A stretch of DNA of 64,000 nt, taken from assembly GCF_026712245.1 (NCBI RefSeq), contig NZ_JAPPUY010000004.1, positions 248,001-312,000 of the forward strand, given 5' to 3'. The notes beneath the pieces are model-generated. The model did not search any database. It was not told the origin of the DNA and saw nothing but the letters and a program-made list of their open reading frames with translations. Source of the DNA: Roseateles hydrophilus (lineage in GTDB: Bacteria > Pseudomonadota > Gammaproteobacteria > Burkholderiales > Burkholderiaceae_C). The translations under genes were made by a program, and so were the position numbers. The first letter of the stretch is position 1; each line of letters begins with the position of its first letter. This document shows, piece by piece, positions 34,060 through 55,379 of the stretch.

Positions 34060-34357
34060 CTTTCGCTCACCTCATGCCCCGGTTTCCAGGGAGTTGGCTG
34101 GTTGAAGAACCTTCCGCGACACGGCTCGACCGGTTGGCGGATTGCGACCCACCTTCGCTGTTGACCAGGCAAAAGGGACGGGAAGGACCATAAGTCTCAA
34201 GGGGCCGAACTCTAGCACCTCGGGTTTGCCCGGCGCAGTCACGCGGTCGCGACAAACTTCACTGATCAAGCTCGAATAAAGTTGACTGCCTCGTAAACTT
34301 GCGCCCGCGACAGCCCCGCGATTGAATGGCTGCGCCACGGGACAACGAGGATTCCCC
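34060..34357. other. Divergent intergenic region sucA / oxygenase
   Basis: About 300 bp between the divergent sucA and the oxygenase gene, without a convincing gene. A TTGACT (34282-34287) and AT-rich patches are present, but I could not pair them into a confident promoter. Both genes presumably start here. Confidence 0.5.
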
Positions 34358-49342: not shown

Positions 49343-49358
49343 TGGTGCGCGGGACGGG
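49343..49358 (-). other. Displaced 3' end of the split tRNA-Leu(UAA); left attachment junction
   Basis: On the minus strand this reads CCCGTCCCGCGCACCA: the 3' half of a T-stem (CCCGT), a 7-nt acceptor strand CCCGCGC, discriminator A and CCA. It is exactly what tRNA-Leu(UAA) at 55233-55310 lacks: CCCGCGC pairs with its 5' GCGCGGG and CCCGT with its ACGGG. Bases 49353-49358 (GACGGG on plus) are the 6-bp sequence shared by both junctions. Confidence 0.92.
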
Positions 49359-49370
49359 TACTAGCATCTT
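49359..49370 (+). repeat. Left terminal inverted repeat of the element
   Basis: TACTAGCATCTT; matches the reverse complement of the right end (TACCAGCACCTT) at 10 of 12 positions. In a circular form the two would flank GACGGG as GCTGGTA-GACGGG-TACTAGC, a typical tyrosine recombinase crossover site with two inverted binding arms. Confidence 0.8.
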
Positions 49371-49378
49371 GCAAAAAG

Positions 49379-49477
49379 ATGGACAGACGCCCGGCTGGCA
49401 AATTCAATGACTTAGCGCAGCCCGCGCTGTCCATCGTTTGAACTAAAAAATGGACACGCAATAGCTAGCTTGTCCAT
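49379..49477. repeat. Left subterminal ATGGACA/TGTCCAT repeats
   Basis: Four copies of one heptamer in alternating orientation: ATGGACA 49379-49385, TGTCCAT 49428-49434, ATGGACA 49450-49456, TGTCCAT 49471-49477. They are probably arm-type binding sites for a recombinase or the coiled-coil protein. The 110 bp that follow hold one hairpin (CCCCTGC TTC GCAGGGG, 49527-49543) and no gene. Confidence 0.75.
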
Positions 49478-49587
49478 TCCTACAGCGGTAGTTCGTCGCA
49501 TGTCGTCGCGCGGGCCAACCGCGCGCCCCCTGCTTCGCAGGGGCAAGCGACCGATGCTCCTCTACAGGGGGCATATTCGGCCTACAC

Positions 49588-49965
49588 CTATTGTCTTGAA
49601 GAATCTTTGCCGCCCGGCAAGGCGACGATTTTGCCAGCGGTATATGCCGCCAACTGAGCCTTTAGCGTATATATCTCATCGATAAGATTTATTTCGCGCT
49701 CAATAGACTCATCAAGCAGCTGACGCAACGTCTTCTTTTCATCACGCAATTGGACGAGCTTCGCCTCGGGCTGCGCCCGCTTTGCTACCTGCTCAGCGGC
49801 GGCTTCGTCAATGGCTTTAATAAGCTCTTCGAAAACCGGTCGAGACCGCTTGATTGAACCCTTTTTATTACCGGCCTCAATAGCAACAGTGTCGTTATTG
49901 ATTTTCGCGCCGCGCTTCTTCAGACGCTCCAGCGCTTCGAAGTAGGCAACAATTGCGTCAGACAT
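49588..49965 (-). CDS. TnpC-like HTH/coiled-coil accessory protein of the element
   Basis: A 125-residue protein starting MSDAIVAYFEALERLKKRG. Residues 10-50 resemble a small helix-turn-helix (INNDTVAIEAGNKKGSIKRS), and about 65-110 form a charged coiled coil (LVQLRDEKKTLRQLLDES...EIYTLKAQLAAY). It overlaps the upstream recombinase gene by 8 nt. Size, position after the recombinases and layout match TnpC of Tn554-type elements, which modulates direction and efficiency of transposition. The homology is suggested by pattern only. A longer frame with 43 extra residues reaches back into the recombinase gene and is rejected. Confidence 0.8.
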   Translation of the reverse strand: MSDAIVAYFEALERLKKRGAKINNDTVAIEAGNKKGSIKRSRPVFEELIKAIDEAAAEQVAKRAQPEAKLVQLRDEKKTLRQLLDESIEREINLIDEIYTLKAQLAAYTAGKIVALPGGKDSSRQ

Positions 49966-51898
49966 GCTTAGGTGCCTCGTTAAGTCGGTCTTTGGCGCGC
50001 AGAAGAACAGACAGGTTGGCGGCCTCGAGTCGATGCTCCACCGAACCAGGCGAAGTTGTCGCCAGCGCTGAAACGACAACCTGCTGCGACTCAATTACGT
50101 GCGATAAGCGCTTTCCGAAAACAACCAGATTTTTGCAGTTTGATTCAAGACAATCATACGGTATAGGTTCCAACGGACTTGATTTGCACTGCTCCGTCGC
50201 AGTGCAGCCGCCAAGAGGCGTTTCCCGATAGGCAAGTTCACCTCTGCGAAAAAGTTCCAAGCCATGCGCTCGAGAATAGACAGATACAGGTGAAGATTTG
50301 ACCTTCTCGCTTCTAGCCCAAGCCGACGCTCCGCCAAATACCTCATCATCGTTCAAGAGAAGGCCTAAGACGTAGCCGAAGTAACTTGATTCCGCTTTAG
50401 CCGAGTTCCATTCGTGCGAAAAGTGTTCTGAATCAAAAACTAAAGATGCCGCATTTTGAAATCCGGCAGAGTAATACAGCGTCATCTCCTCAGTGATGTG
50501 CTGTAGCTGGCCTTTAAGCGACGGCAAGGTCACCATACCACTTCGATGAGCATAAACGGCTAGCGCACGACGAAATTGATGGGTTCGCAGCGGCCAATGT
50601 TTGCCAACGCTAATTCCGCTCAACTCCCAATCTCGACCTAGCTGCATCGTGGTCAGCTCGGAGAGGTCCGCTTCATCGACAATGGGACACCTGTCAGCAA
50701 GCAACTCCCAGTAGTCTTTCCATTTACTAGAAATTCGTTTATATCCTGATTCGGTACCGCAAAAGAGCAGCGGATAGCGCGAATCTTCTCGGGGCGCCCG
50801 TCCAAACGAATCAACCGCCTTAGCAATTGCTTGTGCAGCGATGACAGCCCTTCGGCCAATATCGTTAGTTACCCAAGAAGTTTCTTTAAGTTCACCGCTC
50901 TCCAGCTTATACGTGAATCCTTTAACAATCCAATGAACCCTCCCTTCGTGTTCAAAGGAAGTAAGACATTCACGCGGCAAGTTAAGGGCTTCACCGACAC
51001 GCATCCCGGTGAAAGCCATTACTAGTGCGATTAGCGTGACTTGCTGTTCTACGACTTTTCCGCGCAGAAAGTTTAATCGACTTGCCCCGGACGGTTCGAA
51101 ACCGATGCGATTAAGCAGAGGCAGTATCCCGTCCAACGCCTCCCGGCGGCGTTTAGCTGCGGCCGACCTCGCGATATCACTAGGTAGGGACGCATGAAAC
51201 AATTTAGTCTCAATAAGGGCTTTAGCTATCTCGCCATCAGAATGCTCGATTGCTTCTAGGTTCGCTATTAGCAGGCCTAAGACGCCAGAATATATGCGCG
51301 ACGGCATTAGTGGCGTCTGCTGAAACTGTTTGCCCTGGGCCCGTAATCTTGAGATTTCGTCGCGCACAGCGTGCAAATCAAACGCAACGTTAAAGAGCTT
51401 GCGATTTCGATAGAGCACTTTCAAAAGTGCACTGGAGAACTTAAGTTCGTTGAGGTTGCCGGGGTCGATGTTTTCGGCGACCAACTGGGGGCTACTCAAA
51501 AGGTCAAATAGTGAGACTCCCAGTTTATAGCTCCGAGACGCCCACCTTTGAATTACGATATTACCGCCATATATCGTGCCAAAAGCAAGCGGTACGCCGC
51601 TAGCTGACTGATATGCCCACAGCAGAGCCTTACTTTGCAGCCTGATTCGCAAGGCCAGTTCATCCGCACGCTGGAAGTGCGCATGCTCGTGTTGAGGAAC
51701 GGCTTGGTTTGTCGGGGCGTGATGGATGCGTTTACTGTGGTTTTTTGAGACCGAAGAGTAGTCCCACACGTCATCTTTGAAACGAGATAACGGCGCCCCA
51801 TTCCGGTCCCATGTAACGGCGGTCTCTGGAGGGAAGTATTCTGGAAGGTTGACATCATCGTCCCCCGCGCTAATCGAAACTTCCAGCCTGTTATTCAT
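49958..51898 (-). CDS. Tyrosine recombinase, third of the trio (catalytically complete)
   Basis: A 646-residue protein with an intact tyrosine recombinase active site: Arg300 (FTGMRVGEAL), His440-x2-Arg443 (RTHQFRRAL), His467 (QLQHITEEM) and Tyr476 (TLYYSAG), with the usual His-9-Tyr spacing. The N-terminal 280 residues are helical and unrecognised. The C-terminus has four Cys (Cys565, 571, 583, 588) that may bind zinc, as in the second protein. It overlaps the preceding gene by 4 nt (ATGA) and the next by 8 nt. It probably performs strand exchange at the tRNA-Leu target together with the first recombinase. Confidence 0.88.
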   Translation of the reverse strand: MNNRLEVSISAGDDDVNLPEYFPPETAVTWDRNGAPLSRFKDDVWDYSSVSKNHSKRIHHAPTNQAVPQHEHAHFQRADELALRIRLQSKALLWAYQSASGVPLAFGTIYGGNIVIQRWASRSYKLGVSLFDLLSSPQLVAENIDPGNLNELKFSSALLKVLYRNRKLFNVAFDLHAVRDEISRLRAQGKQFQQTPLMPSRIYSGVLGLLIANLEAIEHSDGEIAKALIETKLFHASLPSDIARSAAAKRRREALDGILPLLNRIGFEPSGASRLNFLRGKVVEQQVTLIALVMAFTGMRVGEALNLPRECLTSFEHEGRVHWIVKGFTYKLESGELKETSWVTNDIGRRAVIAAQAIAKAVDSFGRAPREDSRYPLLFCGTESGYKRISSKWKDYWELLADRCPIVDEADLSELTTMQLGRDWELSGISVGKHWPLRTHQFRRALAVYAHRSGMVTLPSLKGQLQHITEEMTLYYSAGFQNAASLVFDSEHFSHEWNSAKAESSYFGYVLGLLLNDDEVFGGASAWARSEKVKSSPVSVYSRAHGLELFRRGELAYRETPLGGCTATEQCKSSPLEPIPYDCLESNCKNLVVFGKRLSHVIESQQVVVSALATTSPGSVEHRLEAANLSVLLRAKDRLNEAPKHV

Positions 51899-53598
51899 GC
51901 GAGCCCCAGAAACGCCAGTTGTTGCACTTTTGCGGACCAGTAGGGCGACAATCTATTCTCTCTGTCGACCTCAATCTCTACGCGCTCGAATGTTTCACAG
52001 TTGCGCTCCCGTAGTTCTATAAGGATTTTCTCAACCGAGTCCAGCGCTAACCCATACGCACGGTCGACGGCTTCAGCTGAACCTTGTAGCGGAACGAGTT
52101 TCTTCATCGCATACCGAAAACTAAGCAGTTTTCGCATGTCCACTTCGTCGGCGTGTACGCGGTACTTGTCGCAAAAGAGGCACCCTTCCTGCCTTCGGCA
52201 GTTCGGCTCCACCGGCGCGCCAGGCAGCGCCTGCTGCGGCTCGCCAAAGGCGGAGCAGCCTCCAATGGGAATTTCCGCCTCAGAACGGCCTCCTGAGCCG
52301 TCTACGACGCTCTGGACGAGCGAGTCTAGGAACGAGCCGAATTCACGGGCCCGGTCGGCCTTCCGACCGTTGCTGTAGGCCCGTACCGCCGTCTCGATGC
52401 TGTGCCCCATCACCGCAGCGGCAATGGGCAGCGGCTGCGTCCTGACTACGTGATTTTGCTTATACGCGCGCCATTCCCGGGCCGTGATATTCGGCAAATT
52501 AATACCAACGCTTTTCATACGCCGACGCAGCCGTGAAAGAAAATCCTGCGCGATACCTATAGGTGTACGTCCACGAGAGACCGTCACAAATAAGGCTTGA
52601 GCTTCAGCTCCTTGTAGCAACCACTCTCGAAGCGACAAATACGTTCTTAAGCGCTGAACGGCCGCAAGAGAAAGCGTAATGGGCACGTACCGTCCGCCAG
52701 CGCGAAATTTCACTACCCGCTGTCGGGCAGACGAAACATCGGGCCTACGAATTTGCTCAACAATCTCGGATTCGAAATTGAGACTCAGCAGCTGGGCAAG
52801 GTTGGAACCCGAATCGGCAAGTGTCAAGGCAGCTGCAGAAAGTGCTGCCAAAACAGCAACCTCCAGCTCTTTTCCTGGTTCCCCAATCTCAAAGTTGTGT
52901 GGATGGCCACCGACGATTATTTCCAATGAGAACGGAGCTTTGTCGCCCGCGATTATTGAGCTAGCGGTTTGGTCGAAGAATTGAGTAATGGAGCTCAAAA
53001 ATTCGGCGACCCTAGCCTCTTCCGGAACCTGGGTATGGTTGGTTTTCCGCTTTTGTTTCAATAGCGGTATGTCATCGGCAAAAGTTCTGCCATGCATAAG
53101 CTCAAGTCCAACGCGTGCCGACTCGACGAGCATCGCCGCTGTAGACAGCTTGATTTCTCCACGGCTAATCCGCGCCTTTTGAAAATTGTTGTACTTTTCA
53201 ATGGCAGCTCTTGCGCTCGTATTACTAGCCAGCAGGTTGAGCGAATCAATTCCATTGGCGCCATCATCACACCAAGTAAGAAACCTACCGAAATCTCCGA
53301 GATAGCTTTCAATGCTTGACGAGCGCCATCCCGTAATCTTGACCTTTTCGTTGAGACGCTCAACGAAGGTCCAAAGTTCTCGGGCCCGGGTTAGCAATAT
53401 GGATGACTTGTCAATTTCCCAATACTTCGGATGCGAACCGCTTGTCCTTCTACGCAGGTAGCACCAGGTCCACAAATGGATACGGCGCGGGCTGCCAACA
53501 TTGAGTATTAGTCGGTCAACACTTACGACGTCTGGTGCATTTGTAAAAGGGAACTGAAGAGTCAGTAGCCCATCAAACAAAGATGTGTCGGCAATCAT
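51895..53598 (-). CDS. Tyrosine recombinase-like protein, second of the trio (degenerate active site)
   Basis: A 567-residue protein from MIADTSLFDG; the ATG at 53598 overlaps the first gene's stop by 4 nt. It keeps the recombinase fold and the nucleophile (Arg377 in AREWRAY, His399 in MGHSIET, Tyr408 in RAYSNG), but the box I arginine is Asn265 (SGSNLAQLL) and the box II histidine is Arg374. It should be inactive, or act as a structural partner, in the way of degenerate recombinases in trio elements. Four C-terminal Cys (448, 467, 473, 476: GGCSAF...PNC...GCLFC) suggest a zinc site shared with the third protein. The frame is uninterrupted. Confidence 0.86.
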   Translation of the reverse strand: MIADTSLFDGLLTLQFPFTNAPDVVSVDRLILNVGSPRRIHLWTWCYLRRRTSGSHPKYWEIDKSSILLTRARELWTFVERLNEKVKITGWRSSSIESYLGDFGRFLTWCDDGANGIDSLNLLASNTSARAAIEKYNNFQKARISRGEIKLSTAAMLVESARVGLELMHGRTFADDIPLLKQKRKTNHTQVPEEARVAEFLSSITQFFDQTASSIIAGDKAPFSLEIIVGGHPHNFEIGEPGKELEVAVLAALSAAALTLADSGSNLAQLLSLNFESEIVEQIRRPDVSSARQRVVKFRAGGRYVPITLSLAAVQRLRTYLSLREWLLQGAEAQALFVTVSRGRTPIGIAQDFLSRLRRRMKSVGINLPNITAREWRAYKQNHVVRTQPLPIAAAVMGHSIETAVRAYSNGRKADRAREFGSFLDSLVQSVVDGSGGRSEAEIPIGGCSAFGEPQQALPGAPVEPNCRRQEGCLFCDKYRVHADEVDMRKLLSFRYAMKKLVPLQGSAEAVDRAYGLALDSVEKILIELRERNCETFERVEIEVDRENRLSPYWSAKVQQLAFLGLA

Positions 53599-55028
53599 TC
53601 GGAAGCGCCCACACACAGAAGGTGAATCAGATGAGAGCCCCAACCATCTTCTGCGCTTTTCAGCATATGCATGTTTCGGCGGTAATCGACATACCTTTCC
53701 GTCGTTGCGAGACTTTTGTGCCACATCAGCTCACGTAGCTGGTTCATCACCCATTTCCGCTTTTCGCGGTTCATCTCCATCTGCTTCTCGAAGAAGTCGA
53801 CGAAGTTCATGCCAAATGTGGCACGCAAGTCATGGAAACTGTACGAGAAGTCGGGATTGTTCAATTTCGCGCGCACCGCTGGAACCACCCGTTCGGCGAT
53901 GAATTTGCGGAGCCCCTGGCCGATTTTCGCAGACCTCAGGAGCGTATCCGAGTCGCGGTCCGCCGCTCTGTCATCCACGCTCTCGTAGAATGATTTACCG
54001 TGTTGCGTGAGAAAGAGATAATTTTCAGGAGATTCTTTTAGTTTTGATTTCTCCCTTCTCAGCCTCGCGCGCTCACTATGGGCATAAATGTAGAGGCGCT
54101 CGTAAAACAGCTTGGGAATTGTCAGGTAGACGTCCGCTTTTTGTCGCTTCGTGTCGATACCCGTCCCCGGACCGCAGCGCAGTTTGTAGTCCCCAGTTAT
54201 TTCGCTAGGCGGTCGGCTGAAATGCTTTAGCCTAAAGGTCAACACAGTTTGAGCACGTGCTCCGGTGAGAAGTGCTGACTCATGGATGAGCGACATTTCA
54301 GTATTTCCGAGCTCTCGTAGCACGGCAATAACGGCCTCCTGCTCTTCTTGGGGCAGTGGACGCAACTTTCCGCCATCGTCGATAGTCTTTTCCCAAGCGT
54401 AGGAGGATTTTGGACTCGCGATACTGATGTCAGTGGTCGTTATTCCCAGTGCTTGTTCGAATCCTTGCGCGTCGCGATAAGAAATGCTTGCGGATTTCTC
54501 CTGCCAGGGCGAAAAGGCCGGCCTAAAGGCGAAACGGTCACGGCGCTGAACATGTCGATAGAAGGAGATGACATTCGCCATCCGGCGGCTCGCAACGCTG
54601 TTGGAGACCCTGCCCGCCCTTATCTCGTGCAATAGATGTGCACGATACTGATAAGTAGGCAGGCCAAAAGGTTCAGCGGAAGAGAAGTCGTCCCAGCGGA
54701 AGTCAAACTCTTCCAGGAAAGCGCGATATTGTGCTAAGTCACGCGCAATCGAGCTGAGCGTGCCGATTGCCTGTGGTTTGAGCTTTGCCCTGTCAATTAA
54801 ATAGAGGCATGCGACGTCCCAGGGACTGCCATCGCCGCAAAGCACAACGGGGAATTTGGTGAAGCGCGTTGTCCTTATTCCCTTGGCTTGAACCGGCTCC
54901 CGATAATAGGTGCGCTTTCCTGCCTTACCAAGGAGAACCACCTGCCGCGCACCTGCCGAATCAGCATCGCAGACACGGCTAAGTTCGAATATTGGAAGGT
55001 GCTCGCAGCGAGGCGTGATATCAGGCAT
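53595..55028 (-). CDS. Tyrosine recombinase, first of the trio (catalytically complete)
   Basis: A 477-residue protein with all catalytic residues: Arg258 (LLTGARAQTVL), His399-x2-Arg402 (SFHDLRATFG), His437 (LMWHKSLAT) and Tyr446 (TTERYVDYR). An N-terminal SAM-like DNA-binding part (about 75-165) precedes it. Its start lies 32 bp from the 3' end of the element-borne tRNA-Leu, on the same strand, so both may share a transcript. It begins the coupled four-gene operon and is the likely integrase for the tRNA-Leu site. Confidence 0.9.
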   Translation of the reverse strand: MPDITPRCEHLPIFELSRVCDADSAGARQVVLLGKAGKRTYYREPVQAKGIRTTRFTKFPVVLCGDGSPWDVACLYLIDRAKLKPQAIGTLSSIARDLAQYRAFLEEFDFRWDDFSSAEPFGLPTYQYRAHLLHEIRAGRVSNSVASRRMANVISFYRHVQRRDRFAFRPAFSPWQEKSASISYRDAQGFEQALGITTTDISIASPKSSYAWEKTIDDGGKLRPLPQEEQEAVIAVLRELGNTEMSLIHESALLTGARAQTVLTFRLKHFSRPPSEITGDYKLRCGPGTGIDTKRQKADVYLTIPKLFYERLYIYAHSERARLRREKSKLKESPENYLFLTQHGKSFYESVDDRAADRDSDTLLRSAKIGQGLRKFIAERVVPAVRAKLNNPDFSYSFHDLRATFGMNFVDFFEKQMEMNREKRKWVMNQLRELMWHKSLATTERYVDYRRNMHMLKSAEDGWGSHLIHLLCVGASE

Positions 55029-55060
55029 CAGTACTCCATGGAGTCGATGCCAATCACGTG

Positions 55061-55146
55061 TGCTGGGGACGGGACTCGAACCCGTACGGGGTTTTCGCCC
55101 CGGCGGATTTTAAGTCCGCTGCGTTTACCGATTTCGCCACCCCAGC
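55061..55146 (-). tRNA. tRNA-Leu (anticodon TAA), intact, carried inside the mobile element
   Basis: An 86-nt class II tRNA. The acceptor strands GCTGGGG / CCCCAGC pair perfectly, followed by discriminator A; the next bases are CAC, so CCA is not encoded. The anticodon loop ACTTAAAAT gives TAA. The D-arm and anticodon arm are identical to those of the split host gene, while the acceptor stem and variable arm differ (GGGGCGAAAACCCC). It lies inside the element: the right TGTCCAT repeats and terminal repeat are on its 5' side. It can replace the destroyed isoacceptor, reading UUA and UUG. Confidence 0.93.
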
Positions 55147-55171
55147 TCAGGATGGAAGGACATCGACGACG

Positions 55172-55184
55172 TGTCCATGTCCAT
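55172..55184. repeat. Right subterminal TGTCCAT tandem
   Basis: TGTCCATGTCCAT, two overlapping copies of the heptamer found four times at the left end. In inverted orientation the neighbourhood reads AAAATGGACATGGACACG, matching the left AAAAAATGGACACG. Confidence 0.75.
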
Positions 55185-55220
55185 TTTACCAGAAGATGCT
55201 TGTAACGGGAACCAGCTTAG

Positions 55221-55232
55221 AAGGTGCTGGTA
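55221..55232 (-). repeat. Right terminal inverted repeat of the element
   Basis: AAGGTGCTGGTA; reverse complement TACCAGCACCTT matches the left end at 10 of 12 positions. It is immediately followed by GACGGG of the host tRNA. Confidence 0.8.
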
Positions 55233-55310
55233 GACGGGACTTGAACCCGTACGCCTGTTGAGGGCGGCGGATTTTAAGTCCGCTGCGTTTACCGATTTCG
55301 CCACCCGCGC
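55233..55310 (-). pseudogene. tRNA-Leu (anticodon TAA) body without its 3' acceptor strand
   Basis: It starts with acceptor strand GCGCGGG (55304-55310) and runs through D-arm, TAA anticodon and variable arm to the T-loop (GGTTCAAGTCC). After the T-stem and one base it runs into element DNA, giving CTACCAG where CCCGCGC is needed, so the acceptor stem cannot form. The missing strand and CCA lie at 49343-49352. Joining both (one GACGGG) recreates an 88-nt tRNA-Leu with encoded CCA. Confidence 0.92.
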
Positions 55311-55379
55311 TCCGGCCGAATTATCTGCGGCCGCAGAAAAGAAAACGGGAGACTCGATTGCTCGAATCTCCCGTGAATT

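Follow-up and report, generated by a model that had tools for sequence, protein, structure and literature searches.

A small GInt/SE-type integrative element that splits tRNA-Leu(UAA) in Roseateles hydrophilus and carries a complete tRNA-Leu(UAA) of its own

Results

Structure of the locus

The 64,000-nucleotide (nt) stretch of Roseateles hydrophilus DNA analyzed here (assembly GCF_026712245.1, contig NZ_JAPPUY010000004.1, positions 248,001 to 312,000; hereafter the window, with coordinates counted from its first letter) contains on its minus strand a host gene for tRNA-Leu(UAA) that is interrupted at the T-stem/acceptor border by an element made up of a complete tRNA-Leu(UAA) and four recombination genes. 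The upstream neighbors of the host gene on that strand form a tRNA cluster (Gly, Cys, Gly, Gly), and the G+C content of the element is 52.6% versus 67.4% for the remainder of the window. The parts of the locus are the following.

49343..49358 (-): right attachment site (attR), with the 6-base-pair (bp) core CCCGTC at 49353-49358 and next to it, at 49343-49352, the tRNA end displaced from the host gene, CCGCGCACCA
49353..55232 (-): whole element, 5,880 bp counting one copy of the 6-bp core
49359..49587 (-): right end, with TGGACA/TGTCCA motifs, a GCTAAG-TTGA motif and the end motif GCTAGTA
49588..49965 (-): ginD/srap-like gene for a small protein of 125 amino acids (aa)
49958..51898 (-): ginC/intB-like gene for a large tyrosine recombinase, 646 aa, catalytic residues invariant in the alignment
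51895..53598 (-): ginB/tfp-like gene for a degenerate tyrosine recombinase, 567 aa, read from an ATG that overlaps the ginA stop
53595..55028 (-): ginA/intA-like gene for a tyrosine recombinase, 477 aa, with HDLR, W-H and Y conserved in 8 of 8 sequences
55060..55146 (-): carried complete tRNA-Leu(UAA), recognized by ARAGORN and Rfam, CCA end not encoded
55147..55232 (-): left end and operon leader, with the end motif TACCAGCACCTT, a -10-like TAAAAT and TGGACA motifs
55233-55238 (-): left attachment site (attL) core CCCGTC, the last 6 nt of the host 5' part
55233..55310 (-): host tRNA-Leu(UAA) 5' part, from G1 through the T stem, identified by sequence, Rfam and ARAGORN on the joined halves

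An earlier note, made from this DNA alone, had described the split and located the missing tRNA end at 49343-49352, and both are borne out: CCGCGCACCA corresponds to the acceptor 3' strand and CCA of the host tRNA, stranded at 49352-49343, and the joined host halves are called by ARAGORN as a perfect 88-nt tRNA-Leu(UAA), while no tRNA is called by ARAGORN in the split gene of the window as it stands. Rfam assigns the split gene 42.1 bits over model positions 7-64 only, versus 65.0 bits for the complete carried tRNA, and joining the halves yields intact tRNAs in 5/5 elements. The split-gene observation as such is confirmed and chance is ruled out. Two small corrections apply, namely that the core belongs to both ends and that the four genes overlap (ATGA, ATGA, 8 bp), provided that ginB starts at 53598 and not at an upstream GTG. 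Trans-splicing of the two host halves was set aside because it is not known from bacteria.

The carried tRNA ends about 31 bp before the first recombinase gene and is the sole complete tRNA-Leu(UAA) found in the genome, which is 98.66% complete. Among the 52 tRNA matches in that genome, all 11 with a length of 82-90 nt were typed by ARAGORN; the Leu anticodons are CAA, CAG (twice), GAG, UAG and UAA, the last in the element only, and the others are Tyr or Ser. The twelfth Leu match is the split gene, and a pattern scan agrees on a single UAA copy.

Apart from this tRNA and the gin genes, the element in the window contains no cargo genes. None of the four proteins matched Pfam or NCBIfam above the curated cut-off. 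Residues R300, H440, R443, H467 and Y475/Y476 of protein 3 (ginC-like) are invariant in 16/16 sequences, and its profile matches XerH weakly (E-value 0.00056); protein 2 (ginB-like) has an invariant Asn266 at the expected position of the first catalytic Arg. The predicted model of protein 2 (mean predicted local distance difference test, pLDDT, 80.4; predicted template modeling score, pTM, 0.48) matches XerA, Cre and XerH with a Foldseek probability of 1.00 and low template modeling (TM) scores of 0.25-0.35, relative to query length. Four Cys residues are invariant in the C-terminal part of protein 2 and likewise of protein 3 (alignments A2 and A3), which suggests a candidate metal-binding site in each.

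Empty sites in the genus

The empty site had been predicted to be one 88-nt tRNA-Leu(UAA), and an intact gene of this type does follow the same tRNA-Gly/Cys cluster in 14 of the 20 genomes of the genus (own genome counted), with murI, the far flank in the window, within 1.5 kb in 10 of those 14. The remaining six comprise two genomes in which the gene is split by the element (our own and Pelomonas aquatica, G238), two with an insertion in the anticodon loop (G366 and G806), one with no match (G809) and one with no Leu gene nearby (G810). In G801 the intact tRNA has exactly the sequence obtained by joining the two halves at the Pelomonas element site.

As a separate observation, the anticodon-loop insertions of G366 and G806 (L184 and L185, about 1760-2080) measure about 250 nt and look like group I introns; no Rfam match to them was obtained at the gathering threshold.

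Relatives that carry the tRNA

GinA relatives were sought in two scans of 399 genomes each. The first, within the family and at E-values up to 1e-20, found relatives in 15 genomes (own counted), five of which have a tRNA-Leu(UAA) near ginA; the second, within the order and at E-values up to 1e-60, found four genomes besides our own, all without the tRNA. A wider contig search with GinA alignment A1 retained 80 of 114 loci; the same kind of search with a single GinA sequence as query found no relative, nor did a search of viral contigs with alignment A1. GinA relatives are also present on 19 plasmid records, mostly from Paraburkholderia and Cupriavidus (39-42% identical in the best rows). The same four-gene order is found in 11 of 14 relatives' loci, the remaining three being cut by contig ends, and a simple motif search found no Arg motif in protein 3 of some Pseudomonas relatives. 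A seemingly broken ginB in Pelomonas was rejected, as its stops are confined to the first 13 residues read, probably before the true start.

A tRNA-Leu(UAA) lies 17-29 bp before ginA in 8/80 loci, and the other 72 have no tRNA-Leu there. The proposal that copies of this module sit in tRNA-Leu(UAA) next to an intact tRNA thus holds for the carriers and fails as a general rule. Counting the window there are nine distinct carriers, the others being Pelomonas aquatica (G238), a Rubrivivax metagenome-assembled genome (MAG; L046), Paraburkholderia UYCP14C (L047), Paenacidovorax caeni (L050), the MAG LL3.bin32 (L052), Inhella gelatinilytica (L053), Paucibacter Y2R2-4 (L056) and Pseudorhodoferax soli (L057); those with names span Sphaerotilaceae, Comamonadaceae and Burkholderiaceae.

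A junction with host tRNA-Leu(UAA) is seen in 9/9 carriers (left in 8/9, right in 6/9, both in 5/9). The T-stem/acceptor border is cut in the window and in Pelomonas; the anticodon arm is cut in host orientation in Inhella and Paucibacter, and in the opposite orientation in Paraburkholderia, Paenacidovorax, LL3.bin32, Pseudorhodoferax and the Rubrivivax MAG, the last seen at its right end alone. Insertion in both orientations would be accounted for by the near-palindromic sequence of the anticodon arm, GCGGACTTAAAATCCGC. The far ends lie about 38 kb away in Paucibacter and about 52 kb away in Pseudorhodoferax, and on another contig in Inhella.

These junctions bear on two ways of explaining the second tRNA away. 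Were it a host paralogue born of local duplication, with the element inserted between or beside the copies by accident, the shared D and anticodon arms and the 84% identity of the two tRNAs in the window would be expected; a tRNA-Leu(UAA) just before ginA in nine elements, the named carriers of which belong to three families and the tRNAs of which reach 99% identity, would not, and of the 17 genus loci that lack the element ARAGORN finds two UAA copies in none, so that we regard a paralogue as very unlikely. Even less credit is due to the idea that, as with ordinary islands, one end of the element rebuilds the host tRNA and the second tRNA is cargo. ARAGORN does call a tRNA at the Pelomonas junction, weakly and with a mispaired 8-bp acceptor, but it calls none at the window junction, and the inverted and anticodon-arm insertions leave only half a gene beside the element. 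The claim that the host 3' end is not restored and that a whole gene is supplied instead is upheld on both counts, and the interrupted gene of the window does not pass as a functional tRNA in ARAGORN.

Phylogeny and target sites

Two GinA trees were built, the first with 77 rows (seven of the 80 loci were omitted as partial or broken) and the second with 26 chosen rows. The nine carriers fall in a 16-row clade (support 100/99) together with seven tRNA-less members, none of which showed a tRNA-Leu half ahead of ginA. Four of them (L048, L049, L054 and L055) sit at the 3' end of what we take to be ychF, and L040 is inside a presumably aminotransferase-like gene, both names having been recognized by eye from the coded sequence with no search; the left-end site was not assigned for L051 and L094. 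By eye, the leaders of L048 and L049 show a long GC-rich hairpin-like sequence where carriers have the tRNA. The carriers do not form one clade, so that the tRNA either had one origin and disappeared when the target changed, or was acquired repeatedly; we assume a single gain followed by losses.

The sharpest contrast is that of Paraburkholderia and Inhella, with 99% identity between the carried tRNAs and 58% between the GinA proteins. Other pairs show it less strongly, and identity between the carried tRNA of the window and the anticodon-arm group is only about 70%. Because nine elements share the arrangement and, in that sharpest case, the tRNA is far better conserved than the recombinase, the swap looks old and kept by selection. 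The part of the carried tRNA that differs from the target also varies with the site attacked: in the anticodon-arm elements the anticodon stem differs from the target in 7/7, whereas the two T-arm elements keep the anticodon stem and differ in the acceptor, which lacks an encoded CCA. This pattern is suggestive of protection against self-insertion, and only suggestive because the cases are related.

Two further tRNA observations stand apart from the carriers. An odd 83-nt tRNA-Arg(CCT) call lies 138 bp before ginA in Pseudomonas wadenswilerensis (L119:9610-9692), which may be a false call or a further tRNA target. A search of phages and plasmids for the origin of the carried tRNA gave, among the best 15 rows of each, full-length matches of only about 73-77% identity, and hence we do not name a source.

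Element-type tRNA without the element

The exact pattern of the anticodon-arm-type carried tRNA occurs in 12 of the 399 family genomes, two of them carriers. The other ten have no GinA match at E-values up to 1e-20 (two of the ten are less than 80% complete), and the element-type tRNA is the only UAA tRNA-Leu that the pattern scan found in each; in seven of them the locus of this tRNA had no match to the Gin proteins. In one genome (G144, L259:6844-6930) it occupies the canonical place, preceded by GATAAT and by what looks like a decayed 5' half of the host gene, while four congeners retain the host-type tRNA. In another (G241, L260:7780-7866) it stands against the host type in four congeners, and a host 3' half was not found. 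The other eight make up two entire groups (g37 and g119), which might just as well have donated the tRNA.

A split gene accompanied by an intact tRNA where recombinases are missing would have spoken against the element as the cause. Nothing of the kind occurs in the genus, but outside it G144 comes near; we read G144 as the probable remains of such an element and not as counter-evidence. Domestication is the better reading for G144 and a less sure one for the other nine, and these cases suggest that the carried tRNA can outlive its element.

Ends, cores and expression signals

Alignment of six right ends on the core places TTGA at the same position in six, GCTAAG in five and TGTCCA in four, the GCTA-TTGA part having equal spacing in all six elements. 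The window termini, TACCAGCACCTT versus TACTAGCATCTT, form a short inverted repeat in which 10/12 positions agree, less clear in other members. The 6-nt core is exact at both ends in the window, whereas in most other elements the end cores differ: the attL core equals the host core in 6/8 elements and is one base off in two, and the attR core is unlike the host core in 4/6, the common anticodon-arm sequence being taken as host core where the empty site was not seen. This pattern resembles the rule described for SE elements, in which the 6 bp of the former site appear at attR (PMC10214605). Copying out without leaving an empty site, if it occurs here, would spare the donor.

One more feature lies upstream of the interrupted gene.

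55345..55374 (-): terminator-like hairpin that separates the host tRNA-Leu from the last tRNA-Gly

The hexamer GATAAT precedes the host tRNA in the window, in Pelomonas, in G807 and in six further genomes compared, and was not found before it in G366 and G806; it is a putative promoter of the host tRNA, and both the gin genes and the carried tRNA of the window lie downstream of it and in the same direction. A -10-like sequence before the carried tRNA is visible in several leaders, and the inverted relatives would have to express the carried tRNA from a promoter of the element itself.

Elsewhere in the window, a sucA RNA motif (Rfam RF01070) was found at 34064-34147 (-) with 81.8 bits.

Supply of the UAA anticodon

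A further intact UAA gene is absent from 7/8 carrier genomes by pattern scan, the Paraburkholderia genome lying outside this count; the scan overlooked three diverged carried tRNAs (G787, G789 and G792), so that a diverged second copy could escape it too. One contig of the LL3.bin32 MAG (G789 contig C63, L166:5400-5609) breaks off 12 nt before the end of an unbroken copy of the tRNA that is split by the element on a different contig, which is probably an empty site within the same population.

The leucine codon UUA accounts for 12/194 Leu codons in the gin genes versus 9/14,244 in 335 host open reading frames (ORFs; 400 kb plus the window sampled), and the host figure is lowered by the filter that kept only ORFs with third-position G+C (GC3) above 0.70. 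Phage tRNAs may serve codon supply, and by analogy the carried tRNA might mainly provide for the UUA-containing gin genes, with breakage of the host gene secondary. The codon counts favor this idea; against it, the ginA genes of L046 and L056 have no UUA and yet come with the tRNA, while those of L054 (two) and L049 (one) contain UUA in elements that have none, ginA alone having been counted in relatives. The presence of the tRNA tracks the target site instead, and a host with its own gene intact would already provide the tRNA. We consider codon supply an improbable main role. The same rarity of UUA means that tRNA-Leu(UAA) may be needed for few host genes only, for which bldA of Streptomyces offers a parallel.

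Discussion

The locus is best explained, with a probability that we put at roughly 0.87, as a minimal integrative element of the GInt/SE type that is specialized on tRNA-Leu(UAA), breaking the host gene and supplying a whole substitute. The outcome of insertion is seen directly in the sequence; as to the reaction, the recombinases would join a circular copy to the 6-bp core within the host gene, destroying what is apparently the sole gene of its kind, and the loss would be offset because the first gene of the recombinase operon is a complete tRNA-Leu(UAA). In the window this gene is co-directional with the host tRNA and downstream of its promoter region. The cell would then depend on the tRNA of the element for its UUA codons unless exact excision rebuilt the host gene. 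The function and essentiality of the carried tRNA and the excision of the element are read from sequence and should be taken as putative.

Several observations weigh against this reading. The carriers as a single clade are rejected (approximately unbiased test, p = 0.0001); the left junction of the Rubrivivax MAG was not found in about 20 kb upstream; the carried tRNAs of the window and of Pelomonas do not encode CCA; a sigma-70 promoter scan of the window returned no candidate that passed; and UUA is so rare in the host that the carried tRNA might not be strictly essential. To these must be added the weak tRNA call at the interrupted Pelomonas gene and the position of the missing first catalytic Arg, which is in GinC of published GInt elements and in protein 2 here (PMC5385486).

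The four-gene module is of the GInt/SE type, and we file it there, with no choice between the two, by gene order, catalytic motifs and size. The earlier note knew of no named family that works in this way and considered a new class or a branch of Tn554-like elements; neither is upheld (PMC5385486, PMC10214605), and the part that is new is the tRNA swap. GInt elements have a ginABCD operon, a cargo of 2.5-70 kb and flanking direct imperfect repeats of 10-17 nt, and their excision as a circle needs all four genes (PMC5385486). The element studied here shares with them three proteins of the tyrosine-recombinase type plus a small fourth one, site-specific insertion and a 6-nt exchange (PMC5385486), and in the Paucibacter and Pseudorhodoferax relatives the ends lie about 38 and 52 kb apart; it differs in that the targets named in the accessible text are protein genes (an ABC transporter, ssb and the ribonucleotide reductase alpha subunit) and in that such a cargo is not present in the window (PMC5385486). 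SE elements are bounded by imperfect terminal inverted repeats of 13-19 bp and leave no empty site after circle formation (PMC10214605). The order complete, degenerate, large complete and small corresponds by motifs and size to intA-tfp-intB-srap, and an attR core that is often unlike that of the host beside an attL core that is the host's is a further likeness; the window ends form a short inverted repeat, one that is less clear in other members. Unlike the present carriers (Sphaerotilaceae, Comamonadaceae and Burkholderiaceae), SE elements have been reported from Gammaproteobacteria (PMC10214605). The word tRNA is absent from the main texts of both the GInt (PMC5385486) and the SE (PMC10214605) papers.

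Other systems share single traits with the present one. The crossover subsites of islands found by Islander, in the anticodon loop and at the T/acceptor junction, resemble the two seen here, but those islands restore the tRNA from a fragment at their own end (PMC4383910), in contrast to the unrepaired host gene and the whole substitute seen here. Tn554 and RIT elements likewise have several tyrosine recombinases in one operon, but Tn554 has two recombinases and TnpC with no degenerate third, and the archetypal RIT proteins measure 315-410 aa, with no fourth gene described in the accessible text, in contrast to the 477, 567 and 646 aa and the fourth gene found here (PMC3414803, PMC10214605). 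In tycheposons, too, a tRNA borders an element that encodes a tyrosine recombinase; that recombinase, however, is of the XerD type, and the accessible account describes no broken host tRNA with a substitute (PMC10872708). A tRNA swap of this kind was not met in open-licence PMC text either, a weak negative given that the searches were narrow.

Conclusions

These findings bear on how integrative elements relate to the tRNA genes that they enter, as islands have been described as repairing the entered tRNA, whereas here a gene with no second copy found is broken and replaced whole. Such an arrangement would give a small element with no obvious cargo a strong hold on its host. It is a matter of even odds, in our judgment, whether the lineage as a whole captures an essential or near-essential function by gene replacement, becoming the sole source of that tRNA and hence hard to delete, with a tRNA recoded against attack by its own recombinases that persists after those recombinases have died and so opens a route of replacement. 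One recombinase clade reaches several positions, and both orientations, inside a single tRNA gene, and the arrangement offers a concrete and testable mechanism for xenologous tRNA gene replacement.

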